DNA from: Lutibacter sp. A64
Lineage (GTDB): Bacteria; Bacteroidota; Bacteroidia; Flavobacteriales; Flavobacteriaceae
DNA length: 64,000 nt
Reading direction: 5' to 3'
Assembly (NCBI RefSeq): GCF_022429565.1
Contig: NZ_CP092487.1
Span: 2,188,001-2,252,000, forward strand
The first letter of the stretch is position 1; each line of letters starts with the position of its first letter. Below, piece after piece: positions 17,715 through 50,490 of this stretch. The notes below the pieces were generated by a model. The model did not search any database, was not told where the DNA came from, and saw only the letters and a list, made by a program, of their open reading frames with translations. The translations under genes were made by a program, and so were the position numbers.

Positions 17715-18314
17715 CTATTTTTTATAAACATTTTGTTCAAATATTTTTCCTGCACTTTTTGTTACAACTTTATAACTTCCAGATTTAAGATCTTTTAAAT
17801 TAAGAGCCTTCCCTAAATTTACTTCTCCAGCTAATAACTCGTTATACAATAAATTGAATTCATCATCATATAAATTAATTTCAAAGTTTTCCTCGTTAAA
17901 AGCTATTTTAGAAATAAGAATTAAATCTCCTTCTTGTCTTACAGTAGGCTTATAATATGTACTTGTAATTTCATTATTAAATTCAAAACCTCTTGAAGTT
18001 ACCGTAAATGGCATTAAATTAATTTTTGTAACGCCTTCAATCTCGAAATAATAATTACCAATTGGTAATGTATTTAAATCGTATTTTTTTGAAAAATAAC
18101 TTCCCGAAAATTCCTCAGAGTATAAAACTTCTCCATAAGAGTCTTTTACACTTATAGTTAAATCTCCATCAGAATTCTTCAATCGTAAATCAATTAATTT
18201 AGAATCAATTGTACTTACTTTTATATCTAGGTTGTTATTAATGTTCGTTGCGCTTATTACTACTGTAGTTAAAACGGCTACAATAAGTAAACTTTTTTTA
18301 ATTAAATTTTTCAT
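17715..18314 (-). CDS. Small secreted beta-sandwich protein, tandem copy 1
   Basis: 199 residues from the ATG at 18314; a TTG at 18332 also opens the frame, but the ATG directly precedes the signal peptide (MKNLIKKSLLIVAVLTTVVI, cleaved near SATNIN). The mature part has two similar beta-rich halves; one holds DLTISVKDSYGEVLYSEEF, the other EINLYDDEFNLLYNELL. Each resembles the short domains of secreted Bacteroidetes proteins related to DUF3244 or T9SS sorting domains. Function is not known. Copy 1 is the most diverged of three: signal and N-terminal ~100 residues match the other copies almost exactly, while differences gather in the second half. Confidence 0.85.
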   Translation of the reverse strand: MKNLIKKSLLIVAVLTTVVISATNINNNLDIKVSTIDSKLIDLRLKNSDGDLTISVKDSYGEVLYSEEFSGSYFSKKYDLNTLPIGNYYFEIEGVTKINLMPFTVTSRGFEFNNEITSTYYKPTVRQEGDLILISKIAFNEENFEINLYDDEFNLLYNELLAGEVNLGKALNLKDLKSGSYKVVTKSAGKIFEQNVYKK

Positions 18315-18343
18315 AATTTGATATTTTATCAATTAGTATGGGG

Positions 18344-18351
18344 CAAATATA
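18344..18351 (-). promoter_or_regulatory. -7 box of tandem copy 1
   Basis: On the minus strand this reads TATATTTG, an exact TAnnTTTG match, about 30 bases before the ATG. The same box occurs at 19361-19368 and 20365-20372 before copies 2 and 3. A matching -33 TTG at standard spacing is not evident. Confidence 0.6.
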
Positions 18352-18658
18352 TGGCAGATTTCAATTTTAAAATACTTCACATTTCCCATATTTATATCCT
18401 ATTTTAACCATTAATTAATTGTTAAGTTTTCAAGGTTAATTTAGAGTATAAAAAGGTTAAATAGCATTATTTATTACTAAATAATAGTTGTAATCTAGTG
18501 GGTTTAGAATTACTCGTTTTACTAGATTTTATTCATAAAATTTTAACAGACTAAAGAATTGTTTATAAACAAATAGAATACGCACTACAAACGTTTTATT
18601 CATTATAATTAATATAGAATCAACTTAATCTTAATATTAAAAGCTTATTAGTATAAAA

Positions 18659-18693
18659 CAAAAAAAAGATCTTCAAACGAAGACCTTTTTTTT
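18659..18693 (-). terminator. Terminator of tandem secreted-protein gene, copy 2
   Basis: Same element as after copy 1: GATCTTC (18668-18674) faces GAAGACC (18679-18685) with one A-C mismatch; A- and T-runs flank it. Confidence 0.7.
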
Positions 18694-18731
18694 ACTAAAC
18701 CAAACATAAATAATATATAAATTATATACTA

Positions 18732-19331
18732 CTATTTTTTATAAACATTTTGTTCAAATACTTTACCTGCACTTTTGGTTACAACTTTATAACTTCCAGA
18801 TCTAAGGTCTTTTAAACTTAAAGCTTTGTCTAAATTAATTTTACCATTCAATAATTCGTTATACAATAAATTAGATTCTTCATCGTATAAATTAATCTCT
18901 AAATTTTCTTCGTTAAAAGCTATTTTAGAAATAAAAACTAAATCACCATCTTGTCTTACTGTAGGTTTGTAATACGTACTTGTAATTTCATTATTAAATT
19001 CAAAACCTTTTGAAGTTACTGTAAATGGCATTAAATTAATTTTTGTAGTACCTTCTACTTCAAAATAATAATTACCAGTTGGCAATGTATTTAAATCGTA
19101 TTTTTTTGAAAAATAACTTCCTGAAAATTCCTCAGAGTATAAAACTTCTCCATAAGAGTCTTTTACACTTATTGTTAAATCTCCATCAGAATTTTTTAAT
19201 CGTAAATCAATTAATTTAGAATCAATTGTACTTACTTTTATATCTAGGTTGTTATTAATGTTCGTTGCGCTAATTACTACTGTAGTTAATACGGCTACAA
19301 TAAGTAAACTTTTTTTAATTAAATTTTTCAT
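18732..19331 (-). CDS. Small secreted beta-sandwich protein, tandem copy 2
   Basis: 199 residues from the ATG at 19331. Almost identical in protein sequence to copy 3; in the mature part I see only a Ser/Ala difference (EEFSGSYF against EEFAGSYF). It differs from copy 1 mainly after residue ~135 (for example INLYDEESNLLYNELLNGKI). Signal peptide and two-part beta-rich architecture as in copy 1. Near-identity of coding and flanking sequence points to recent duplication or gene conversion. Confidence 0.85.
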   Translation of the reverse strand: MKNLIKKSLLIVAVLTTVVISATNINNNLDIKVSTIDSKLIDLRLKNSDGDLTISVKDSYGEVLYSEEFSGSYFSKKYDLNTLPTGNYYFEVEGTTKINLMPFTVTSKGFEFNNEITSTYYKPTVRQDGDLVFISKIAFNEENLEINLYDEESNLLYNELLNGKINLDKALSLKDLRSGSYKVVTKSAGKVFEQNVYKK

Positions 19332-19360
19332 AATTTGATATCTTATCAATTAGTATGAGG

Positions 19361-19368
19361 CAAATATA
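19361..19368 (-). promoter_or_regulatory. -7 box of tandem copy 2
   Basis: TATATTTG on the minus strand, exact TAnnTTTG, 30 bases before the ATG. Confidence 0.6.
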
Positions 19369-19663
19369 TGGCGGATTTTAACTTTAAAATACCTCAGATT
19401 TTTCATATTTATATTCTATTTTAACTATTAATTAATTGTTAAGCTTTTATGGTTAATTTGAAACATAAAGAGGTTAAATAACACACAATGCTAAATTCTT
19501 AAAGATCTAAATAGAACTACACTAATAATATTCCTTTCAACATATTTAAGGTACTAAGTGTAATATATTATATATGTAGATATTTTTTTATTAATAGGAA
19601 GTAAACAATATTAATTAATACAGTACTAAACTTGCAAGTATTTATTAAAAGAAAAACTATAAA

Positions 19664-19697
19664 ACAAAAAAAAGTCTTCAAACGAAGACCTTTTTTT
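19664..19697 (-). terminator. Terminator of tandem secreted-protein gene, copy 3
   Basis: AGTCTTC (19673-19679) faces GAAGACC (19684-19690) with one end mismatch; A- and T-runs flank it. Third instance of the element. Confidence 0.7.
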
Positions 19698-19735
19698 ACT
19701 AAACCAAACATAAATAATATATAAATTATATACTA

Positions 19736-20335
19736 CTATTTTTTATAAACATTTTGTTCAAATACTTTACCTGCACTTTTGGTTACAACTTTATAACTTC
19801 CAGATCTAAGGTCTTTTAAACTTAAAGCTTTGTCTAAATTAATTTTACCATTCAATAATTCGTTATACAATAAATTAGATTCTTCATCGTATAAATTAAT
19901 CTCTAAATTTTCTTCGTTAAAAGCTATTTTAGAAATAAAAACTAAATCACCATCTTGTCTTACTGTAGGTTTGTAATACGTACTTGTAATTTCATTATTA
20001 AATTCAAAACCTTTTGAAGTTACTGTAAATGGCATTAAATTAATTTTTGTAGTACCTTCTACTTCAAAATAATAATTACCTGTTGGCAATGTATTTAAAT
20101 CGTATTTCTTTGAAAAATAACTTCCTGCAAATTCCTCAGAGTATAAAACCTCTCCATAAGAGTCTTTTACACTTATAGTCAAATCTCCATCAGAATTCTT
20201 CAATCGTAAATCAATTAATTTAGAATCAATTGTACTTACTTTTATATCTAGGTTGTTATTAATGTTCGTTGCGCTTATTACTACTGTAGTTAAAACGGCT
20301 ACAATAAGTAAACTTTTTTTAATTAAATTTTTCAT
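19736..20335 (-). CDS. Small secreted beta-sandwich protein, tandem copy 3
   Basis: 199 residues from the ATG at 20335, nearly identical to copy 2. Being first in transcription direction, it is divergent from an AraC-family regulator at 20527, with under 200 bases between them. That makes the regulator a plausible controller of the tandem array, but only by position. Signal peptide as in copies 1 and 2. Confidence 0.85.
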   Translation of the reverse strand: MKNLIKKSLLIVAVLTTVVISATNINNNLDIKVSTIDSKLIDLRLKNSDGDLTISVKDSYGEVLYSEEFAGSYFSKKYDLNTLPTGNYYFEVEGTTKINLMPFTVTSKGFEFNNEITSTYYKPTVRQDGDLVFISKIAFNEENLEINLYDEESNLLYNELLNGKINLDKALSLKDLRSGSYKVVTKSAGKVFEQNVYKK

Positions 20336-20364
20336 AATTTGATATTTTATCAATTAGTATGGGG

Positions 20365-47682: not shown

Positions 47683-48254
47683 AAAAAATCTATTATGATG
47701 CCAATTTTATTATTTTATATATACGATACCCAAAGAGTTATTTTTTAGAAGTATTTATTTAACTGGTTTTAATTAAATATTTCATAATTCCAGAAATTAA
47801 AAATTTCAACATCTATAAATCTTTTTTTAATCAGTATATTTTACTTTCTCATTTTGATAATTCAATACATTAAACAACTCTAAAAGCTCTAATTTTAAAA
47901 ATAATTTAAAATTAAACACCCTTTAATTAATTTTTAGCAGTAATTAACGCTTTTTAAAGTTTTCTATAGATACAATTATTTGAAGTATCTAATTAAAAAA
48001 TACTTTAATTTTATGCAAAAAAAAATACCATAGTTTAATTAAATACTACGATATCCAATATTAAATTAAGATTTTGAAATCCATTACACTTTAAGCTAAA
48101 ACCTAGAATAAAAATGCGTTTTAGAGGTTTAGAAGCACTAAATATTCTTTGCTTAAAAAACACAAAAGATGTTTCCCAAATTTACCTAAAAGTCTTTATA
48201 TAGTATAAACACCACACTTTAAATATAAAACAGCAATATTCATTCTTTCAATTT

Positions 48255-48283
48255 TTGTTATGAGAATATTCTCATTATCTTTG
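48255..48283 (+). promoter_or_regulatory. Promoter with a perfect 16-bp palindrome as spacer (operator)
   Basis: TTG at 48255-48257, then 18 bases, then TATCTTTG at 48276-48283, matching the Bacteroidetes -33/-7 consensus. The spacer holds ATGAGAAT|ATTCTCAT (48260-48275), a perfect palindrome ending right against the -7 box. A protein bound there would block polymerase. It controls the operon starting at 48314. Confidence 0.75.
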
Positions 48284-48313: not shown

Positions 48314-48727
48314 ATGCCTCCTAAAAGAAAACTTAGAAAAATTGTAACTCCTCCAAATTTTAAAGGATACAAACCTTATGGAACAACAAAAGAATCTATT
48401 GAAGCAATTGAATTGTTGTATGAAGAATATGAAGCTATAAAATTAGCAGATTATCAATTTTTAACACATTTAGAAGCTAGCAAATTAATGGGAATATCAA
48501 GAGCAACCTTTGCTAGAATTTATGAAAAAGGGAGAAGAAAAATAGCCAAAGCACTTGTTGAAACACTTGAAATTAAAACCGTTTTTGGAAATGCTTCACT
48601 TGATAAAAGTTGGTATATATGCCTTAATTGTACTGCAAAATTTACCATTCCAAAAACTATTAAAGACTATTGCTGCCCTATGTGCGCCTCTAACAATGTT
48701 GAATCTACTTTAAATTTAAACCAATAA
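48314..48727 (+). CDS. DUF134 (UPF0251) family DNA-binding-like protein
   Basis: 137 residues. The N-terminal MPPKRKLRKIVTPPNFKGYK opening matches DUF134. A helix-turn-helix follows at about residues 48-80 (LTHLEASKLMGISRATFARI). The C-terminal half has a zinc-ribbon-like pair of CxxC motifs (CLNCTAKF and CCPMCAS), less usual for the family. Members often sit beside NifX/NifB-related genes, as here. It is a good candidate to bind the palindrome in its own promoter. The ATG lies ~30 bases after the -7 box. Confidence 0.88.
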   Translation: MPPKRKLRKIVTPPNFKGYKPYGTTKESIEAIELLYEEYEAIKLADYQFLTHLEASKLMGISRATFARIYEKGRRKIAKALVETLEIKTVFGNASLDKSWYICLNCTAKFTIPKTIKDYCCPMCASNNVESTLNLNQ

Positions 48728-48729
48728 TT

Positions 48730-49062
48730 ATGAAAATTATTATCAGTTCAACAGGGAATACTATAAAATCTCAATTTGATTTACGTTTCGGTAGAGCACC
48801 TTATTTTTGTGTAATTGATGAAACAGATTTAGATTCTTTTAAATTCTATGAAAATTTCTCTTCAAACAATAATAAAAATGCTGGTATTGCTGCAGCAAAA
48901 AAAGGTGTTTCGTTAAAAGCTACTAAAATTATTTCAGGTGAATTTGGAGATCAATCTAAAAAAATTTTAGACGAGCATAATATTCAATTAATTATGATTA
49001 ATGAAGAAAATTGCACTATTGAAACACTTTTAGAACGTTTAAAAAGCAACAATAAATCATGA
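48730..49062 (+). CDS. Dinitrogenase iron-molybdenum cofactor (NifX/NafY-like) family protein
   Basis: 110 residues, a single domain of the family covering NifX, the NifB C-terminus and the orange protein: MKIIISSTGNTIKSQFDLRF, GRAPYFCVIDE, NNKNAGIAAAKKGVSLKATK. It likely binds a metal cluster or cofactor. No nif genes are visible here, so a nitrogenase role is unlikely. It starts two bases after the DUF134 stop and overlaps the next gene by four bases. Confidence 0.88.
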   Translation: MKIIISSTGNTIKSQFDLRFGRAPYFCVIDETDLDSFKFYENFSSNNNKNAGIAAAKKGVSLKATKIISGEFGDQSKKILDEHNIQLIMINEENCTIETLLERLKSNNKS

Positions 49063-49655
49063 GCAGTCTTAATTTAATATTAATACAAGGTGAAACCGTA
49101 AAACTACCTACCAAATACGGTAATTTTGAATTAACGGTTTTTAAAGAAACTACATCTAAACTTGAACATATTGTACTCTTAAAAGGAAATTCAAAAACAG
49201 AAGGAACTTGGTTAACACGCGTACATTCGGCTTGCGCTACAGGAGATTTATTTGGCTCGCTACGTTGTGATTGTGGAGAACAACTTGAAAAATCGCTTCA
49301 ACTTATAGAAGAAAACGGAAAAGGAATTGTTATTTATTTAATGCAAGAAGGGCGCGGAATTGGGCTCCTAAATAAAGTTAAAGCCTACAAACTACAAGAA
49401 AATGGCATGGATACCGTAGAAGCGAATTTACATCTTGGATTTAAGCCTGATGAAAGATCCTACGATATTGCAGCCTCAATATTAAAATCATTGCATATTT
49501 CTGAAATTAATCTATTAACCAACAACCCCGATAAAATTGAAAAACTTGAAGAAAATGGCATTCAAATTAAAGAAAGAATTCCGTTAAAAATCACACCCAA
49601 TGTTCACAATATAAAATATTTTAAAACTAAAGTTTTAAAAATGGGGCATTTATAA
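49059..49655 (+). CDS. ribA: GTP cyclohydrolase II, stand-alone
   Basis: 198 residues, full length for the single-domain enzyme. It opens GTP's ring to form the riboflavin precursor. Zinc-ligand cysteines occur in HSACATGDLFGSLRCDCGEQ; catalytic/substrate motifs YLMQEGRGIGLLNKVKAYKL, DTVEANLHLGFKPDERSYDI, LLTNNPDKIEKLEENGI. Most Bacteroidetes carry a fused RibBA instead, so a separate copy inside this operon may be a paralogue serving another pterin or flavin-like pathway. ATG overlaps the previous stop (49059-49062). Confidence 0.92.
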   Translation: MSSLNLILIQGETVKLPTKYGNFELTVFKETTSKLEHIVLLKGNSKTEGTWLTRVHSACATGDLFGSLRCDCGEQLEKSLQLIEENGKGIVIYLMQEGRGIGLLNKVKAYKLQENGMDTVEANLHLGFKPDERSYDIAASILKSLHISEINLLTNNPDKIEKLEENGIQIKERIPLKITPNVHNIKYFKTKVLKMGHL

Positions 49656-49701
49656 AATAGAGCTAGAAACTCAATAATACATCAAAAACAAATACAAACA
49701 C

Positions 49702-50490
49702 ATGAAACTAACAGTATTAACCGAAAATTACGCAGGAGATAAGTTTGAAGCCGAACACGGACTATCGTACTTAATAGAACATAACAACCACAAAATATTG
49801 TTTGATACTGGAGCTACAGATGTATTTTTAAGAAATGCCAAAATTTTAAATATTGATATTAAAAATGAAATTAACACTGTAGTTTTAAGTCACGGACATT
49901 GGGATCACGGTGGCGGATTAGAGTATCTTAACAATAAAACCTTAATAACGCATCCTAGCTCATTTATAAAAAGATATAGAAAAAAGGATAAATCGTCTAT
50001 TGGGTTGACTTTGAGTGAAGATGAATTAAAAGAAAAATTCAAAATAATTAAAACCAGTAAACCTTATATTATAAACGATAATATGATTTTTTTAGGTGAA
50101 ATCCCTAGATTAAACAAATTTGAAGCCAAAAAAACATCTTTTATAGATAGTAAAAGAAAACTGGATTTTGTACCCGATGATTCTGCCTTGGTACTATTAA
50201 ACAAAGAAGAAATTATAATAGTTACAGGTTGCTCGCATTCTGGAATATGTAATATTGTAGATTATGCTCAAAAAAAGTTTAAACGCTCTAAAATTAAAGC
50301 GGTAATTGGCGGATTTCATTTAAAAGAAAATAATGTTCAAACACAAAAAACAATTGAGTTTTTAAAAAAATGTAACATTTCAGAAATCTATCCATCACAT
50401 TGCACTGCTGAACCTGCACTAGAAGCTTTTGAACAAGATTTCAAATTTGATCGCGTAAAAACAGGTATGACACTTACTTTTTGGGAATAG
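49702..50490 (+). CDS. MBL-fold metallo-hydrolase, COG1237 type
   Basis: 262 residues. Metal ligands: SHGHWDHGGGLEYL (HxHxDH), GCSHSGICNIV, GGFHLKENN and PSHCTAEPALEAF. This pattern matches the subgroup including archaeal dihydropterin aminobenzene-phosphate synthase of methanopterin biosynthesis, so a pterin-type substrate is possible. It lies 46 bases after ribA in the same direction, the apparent last gene of the operon. Confidence 0.88.
   Translation: MKLTVLTENYAGDKFEAEHGLSYLIEHNNHKILFDTGATDVFLRNAKILNIDIKNEINTVVLSHGHWDHGGGLEYLNNKTLITHPSSFIKRYRKKDKSSIGLTLSEDELKEKFKIIKTSKPYIINDNMIFLGEIPRLNKFEAKKTSFIDSKRKLDFVPDDSALVLLNKEEIIIVTGCSHSGICNIVDYAQKKFKRSKIKAVIGGFHLKENNVQTQKTIEFLKKCNISEIYPSHCTAEPALEAFEQDFKFDRVKTGMTLTFWE

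Follow-up and report, generated by a model that had tools for sequence, protein, structure and literature searches.

The four-gene unit and its promoter

The window considered here is a stretch of 64,000 nucleotides from the genome of Lutibacter sp. A64 (Flavobacteriaceae), which comprises a single contig of 4.03 Mb. It carries four consecutive genes whose open reading frames, tight spacing and names, as given by the initial annotation, are borne out by the ORF list and by Pfam matches (DUF134, 67 bits; Nitro_FeMo-Co, 35 bits; GTP_cyclohydro2, 222 bits; Lactamase_B, 43 bits). The genes, as placed by the ORF list, and the features around them are as follows:

48255-48257, + strand: TTG, putative -33 element of a Bacteroidota-type promoter, 18 bp before the -7 element
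48260-48275, no strand assigned: perfect 16-bp palindrome ATGAGAATATTCTCAT, probable DUF134 operator, of a class common to DUF134 promoters
48276-48283, + strand: TATCTTTG (TAnnTTTG), putative -7 element, 2 nt past the palindrome core
48314-48727, + strand: DUF134 gene, 137 aa
48730-49062, + strand: NifX-like gene, 110 aa
49059-49655, + strand: RibA gene, 198 aa
49702-50490, + strand: MBL (metallo-beta-lactamase fold) gene, 262 aa
50600-50622, + strand: weakly terminator-like stem-loop 3' of the operon, only suggestive

The spacing between successive genes (2 bp, -4 bp and 46 bp) makes it likely that all four are carried on a single transcript. The strength of the downstream stem-loop is not above that of shuffled sequences. 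The flanking genes include leucine genes and Dus, and a syntenic copy of the four-gene locus is found in Lutibacter citreus (L035). Elsewhere in the window, three tandem, near-identical genes of 205 aa occupy positions 17715-20353 on the - strand.

The promoter consensus of Bacteroidota consists of TTG at -33 and TAnnTTTG at -7. The conserved operator/promoter region of the unit, at 48250-48283, lies upstream of position 48314, where the initial annotation had the unit begin. The palindrome ATGAGAATATTCTCAT is situated 54 to 39 bp 5' of the DUF134 start and fills the 18-bp spacer between TTG and TATCTTTG, which is the placement expected of a repressor site. A TGA-N8-TCA palindrome is found within 130 bp upstream of 64 of 74 DUF134 loci, as against 0.3 in shuffled sequences, with the proviso that these loci share descent and are hence not independent counts. 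The palindrome is often doubled, with the copies 26 bp apart. A TAnnTTTG motif comes after it in 43 of 70 loci, mostly at the fixed offset of 2 (a random 20-mer contains this motif in 0.8% of cases); most single-operator loci display the -7 element at the same spacing, and in double-site loci it usually accompanies the upstream copy. Within the window genome the site is unique, allowing up to one mismatch, as it is in another genome of the same genus (G274). Of 25 exact 14-mer sites in 19 genomes, 23 map to units encoding DUF134, NifX-like, Mrp, DUF5320 or RibA-MBL proteins. The exact sites of G572 (C5) and G582 (C10) have no regulon genes 3' of them and were taken as chance occurrences. Hence, ATGAGAATATTCTCAT is probably the DUF134 operator.

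DUF134 and its proposed regulon

DUF134 combines a helix-turn-helix resembling region 4 of sigma factors with a Cys4 knuckle (C103, C106, C121 and C124) that at least 77 of 79 sequences retain. An AlphaFold2 model (mean pLDDT 82) presents three helices, and Foldseek searches with it recover sigma region 4 and DeoR with a probability of about 1, albeit at E-values of about 0.1 or higher. Thus, the two features expected of a helix-turn-helix autoregulator, the predicted fold and a palindrome at its own promoter, are found together in DUF134.

Different DUF134 subfamilies are paired with different sites: those with a TFARIYE-type recognition helix go with TGAGAA half-sites and those with a TLTRIYN helix with TGAACN half-sites. 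Genome-wide, TGAACNTANGTTCA sites occur almost exclusively at genes of the TLTRIYN type, including the paralogue of the window genome at 2716346. The latter belongs to a second pair of DUF134 and NifX-like genes (L028 7344-8151; G000:C1:2716346-2717078) with its own palindrome, TGAACCTACGTTCA. In G272 and G284, RibA-MBL genes also lie downstream of DUF134 genes of the second subfamily. Gut Bacteroidales encode DUF134 and a NifX-like domain as one fused protein; the Phocaeicola fusions are followed by DUF4405 and preceded by TGAACATTTGTTCA, as exemplified by L267 1295-2107 of the Phocaeicola massiliensis record OY726045, with DUF4405 as the next gene and the palindrome upstream. Taken together, the palindrome, the way it changes along with the recognition helix, and the NifX-like fusions make DUF134, classed so far as a domain of unknown function, a candidate regulator for which a site and a limited regulon can be predicted; a literature search for DUF134 recovered no relevant study. 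We propose that it is probably an autorepressor, with operator position as the sole pointer to repression rather than activation.

In a family-wide search, no more than 8 of 249 Flavobacteriaceae had a DUF134 match above the cut-off, and a scan of genome contigs recovered 66 DUF134 loci, nearly all from Bacteroidota and many from Marinilabiliales. The core set of DUF134, NifX-like, often MinD ATPases, and MBL recurs in dozens of Bacteroidota. Gene maps suggest a core order of DUF134, NifX-like, (DUF5320), NifX-like, (DUF89/ARMT1) and two MinD ATPases with ferredoxin sites, after which come, variably, Mrp, a YbgC-type thioesterase, MBL, DUF4405 and a CoA-disulfide reductase/rhodanese. Most versions of the operon in Marinilabiliales and Maribacter include a MinD/Mrp-type iron-sulfur ATPase. 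No recognizable relatives of these ATPases were found in four same-genus genomes tested (G000, G274, G251 and G284), suggesting that the window carries a reduced version. Six of 38 same-genus genomes have a stand-alone, canonical RibA next to a COG1237-like MBL, as do three Maribacter species, one other member of the Flavobacteriaceae and one of the Marinilabiliaceae; the gene maps place RibA beside or near MBL in the Maribacter species, in G143 and in the six same-genus genomes. Three other stand-alone RibAs of Flavobacteriaceae (G075, G138 and G018) lie outside the DUF134/MBL setting. A family of proteins of about 690 aa, with no Pfam or NCBIfam match, is also repeatedly encoded next to DUF134, NifX-like, RibA or MBL genes in Flavobacteriaceae (L031 4453-6525, L032 4028-6127, L162, L163 and L164).

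This recurrence rules out a chance clustering of the four genes. Many DUF134 operons have neither RibA nor MBL, and RibA is missing from most, indicating that it is not essential to the core function. Even so, the operator also stands ahead of RibA-MBL pairs that are unlinked from DUF134. In the Marinilabiliaceae strain JC017 (G581), separate operator sites precede NifX-like (L221) and a DUF5320-DUF4405-RibA-MBL unit (L219), and in G273 TGAACGCACGTTCA precedes a DUF5320-like ORF behind which RibA and MBL lie with no adjacent DUF134. Puteibacter (G579) has operator sites 5' of DUF5320-DUF4405 (L222) and of Mrp (L223). The same site upstream of unlinked RibA-MBL units suggests that RibA and MBL are regulon members wherever they lie. 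Hence, the earlier proposal that the regulator, the NifX-like protein, the GTP ring-opening enzyme and the hydrolase belong together, for which recurrence of the neighborhood had been suggested as the check, has held up.

The NifX-like protein and related metal-sulfur systems

The NifX-like protein matches PF02579/IPR003731 modestly (35.3 bits against a cut-off of 26.3), has few cysteines and ends in LLERLKSNNKS. Its profile finds MTH1175, of the IssA clade, as the best match in the PDB and also retrieves ORP; TM1816-type proteins are among the nearest solved structures. Given these relatives and the lack of nif genes in the window, we rejected an identity as the NifX of nitrogenase, in agreement with the initial annotation, which had described a NifX-like protein without a nif neighborhood. 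We propose that it is probably a metal-sulfur cluster-binding partner or sensor of DUF134. The genome encodes a third NifX-like protein, at an isolated locus (L034 7169-7567; G000:C1:922249).

Two characterized systems offer themselves for comparison. The ORP operons of Desulfovibrio encode NifX-like/MinD/Mrp sets, of which MrpORP takes up Fe-S clusters and passes them on (PMC6345978); transcription of these operons is driven by sigma54 with an enhancer-binding protein (PMC3897727). The fuller Bacteroidota operons are similar in combining a NifX-like/Di-Nase protein with MinD/Mrp-type ATPases, a set typical of anaerobes. The window unit, in contrast, has no MinD or Mrp gene and instead has RibA and MBL, and it appears to be a single unit, as judged from TTG-18-TATCTTTG and the palindrome, unlike the divergent sigma54 operons. 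IssA of Pyrococcus furiosus is a thioferrate storage protein (PMC5524996). It shares the IPR003731 domain, and its tail has a reminiscent counterpart in the Gly/Arg-rich DUF5320 proteins, whose genes neighbor those of NifX-like proteins; however, the window NifX-like protein does not have the long, Gly-rich, high-pI C-terminal tail, and the window unit does not have DUF5320. Since the unit departs from the defining features of both systems, we file it as a DUF134 regulon that has a GTP cyclohydrolase II of its own. The claim that the system is undescribed thus needs to be qualified: its NifX-like/MinD/Mrp part resembles ORP and IssA, and the probable regulation by DUF134 and the proposed link to flavins are the new elements.

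These resemblances raise the alternative that this is an ORP/IssA-type operon for iron-sulfur assembly or storage, with NifX-like as the worker and RibA as an occasional passenger. The core operons with MinD-ferredoxin ATPases, Mrp, Gly/Arg-rich DUF5320 and NifX-like, together with the retrieval of ORP and MTH1175 by the NifX profile, speak for it. However, the RibA-MBL unit keeps its operator when moved, which is not the behavior of a random passenger, and the MinD ATPases are missing from the same-genus genomes tested; we regard this alternative as rather doubtful, if worth entertaining, and favor a role for NifX-like as sensor (or cargo) within a regulon that includes RibA.

RibA, MBL and a possible role in the supply of flavins

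RibA has a full PF00925 domain, with the zinc-binding cysteines C59, C70 and C72 and the motif QEGRGIG (96-102), and aligns end to end with Escherichia coli RibA (2bz0), whose zinc cysteines and QEGR motif it shares. By its sequence it is a canonical GTP cyclohydrolase II, and these motifs rule out a divergent type. It differs from the E. coli enzyme in its setting, within a metal-sulfur regulon and apart from the RibBA of the cell. A single origin of the operon RibAs received 98/98 support in a tree that included outgroups; it was not recovered when the outgroups were left out, a long-branched pair from G075 and G138 then falling among the operon RibAs.

The only other PF00925 protein of the genome is a RibBA (G000:C1:1132614), the presence of which the initial annotation had asked about. 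It is there, with a cyclohydrolase half that is degenerate, being devoid of both the zinc cysteines and the QEGR motif. Thus, RibA is the sole intact GTP cyclohydrolase II of the genome and cannot be viewed as a spare copy beside a normal RibBA. Proteins of the RibB type with a non-functional cyclohydrolase domain are known as RibBX. The term is used in the literature (PMC10012899), and the loss of the zinc site makes the RibBA of the window genome comparable to them. The loss differs in being family-wide and usually unaccompanied by a separate RibA: none of 20 RibBA proteins of Flavobacteriaceae keeps the zinc cysteines and the QEGR motif, as opposed to 19 of 19 from other Bacteroidota (the loci examined include L002, G000:C1:1131114-1134593, L109-L157 and L246-L252). 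Most Flavobacteriaceae have no PF00925 protein besides RibBA; 194 of 199 of their genomes encode lumazine synthase. The family-wide loss of the site with retention of lumazine synthase suggests that another solution probably exists in Flavobacteriaceae and points to a missing enzyme across a large family. A literature search on a missing cyclohydrolase II in this family returned nothing relevant.

These observations bear directly on the possibility that RibA is a plain housekeeping enzyme, parked by chance in the operon after RibBA had lost its activity. The sole intact PF00925 protein of the genome would fit such a role, and in this part the concern that RibA might simply serve riboflavin is justified. 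Yet, with the domain lost throughout the family, 32 of 38 same-genus genomes have no RibA, and the retention of lumazine synthase by nearly all sampled Flavobacteriaceae, most RibA-less relatives included, suggests that they manage without it. Furthermore, G581 has an intact RibBA alongside the regulon RibA, making a purely housekeeping role unlikely, and the regulon operator implies conditional expression. We therefore consider chance parking unlikely and take conditional flavin supply as the simplest reading of the role of RibA. The control of E. coli ribA by SoxRS provides a precedent that ties flavin demand to redox stress.

MBL displays the metallo-beta-lactamase fold of the Tm1679/COG1237 type, with an HGHWDHG motif, and its closest solved relatives are Tm1679 (3h3e, 7e-37) and 2p4z (6e-31), both structural-genomics entries. 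It adjoins or lies near RibA in every regulon locus that has RibA; the MBL tree is too poorly resolved to be of use. The initial annotation placed it in a pterin-pathway subgroup: the fold and type stand, but no hit to a curated COG1237 or pterin-pathway model was found, and the pathway is hence an annotation label only.

Accommodating these lines of evidence, we consider it moderately probable that the locus is one autoregulated DUF134-regulon unit, with NifX-like as a metal-sulfur sensor or cargo and RibA raising the supply of flavin. DUF134 would repress its own promoter by covering the spacer between the -33 and -7 elements. NifX-like might hold an iron-sulfur or thiometalate cluster and, as sensor (or cargo), set the binding of DUF134, with sensing passing through the Cys4 site, the NifX-like partner or both. 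Upon a shift in a metal, sulfur or redox signal, RibA would open GTP to the first riboflavin intermediate, allowing more flavin to be made, and MBL may hydrolyze some substrate alongside it. In most relatives, the same regulon would also drive the ferredoxin-type MinD ATPases and, sometimes, the CoA-disulfide reductase/rhodanese. Such a regulon would tie an ORP/IssA-type metal-sulfur-binding protein to flavin synthesis, a link of which we have met no description.

The further suggestion that RibA and MBL make a modified pterin-, flavin- or deazaflavin-like molecule for the metal-sulfur protein draws on the linkage of RibA with MBL, the thioesterase and NifX-like across genomes and on the tradition of annotating COG1237 as "dihydropterin", but is quite improbable, given that RibA is canonical at the catalytic motifs checked, that gene maps reveal no conserved methyltransferase, radical-SAM or other tailoring enzyme beside it, and that many DUF134 operons do without both genes. 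The synthesis of an uncommon pterin- or flavin-like cofactor, as originally envisaged, thus finds no corresponding gene for a modified product. We likewise accord little credence to a combined version in which DUF134 and NifX-like, separate or fused, are a new family of metal-sulfur-cluster-responsive regulators whose RibA and MBL, as dedicated regulon members, serve to produce an altered flavin- or pterin-like compound for a metal-sulfur protein.

Apart from these units, we observed RibA-like proteins of 170 aa that have the CDC cysteines and lack QEGRGIG (L169, L105, L106 and L168). In L169 (4996-5508 and 6273-7037) such a protein is encoded close to a creatininase-family gene, the two perhaps representing a formamide-forming cyclohydrolase and its hydrolase.
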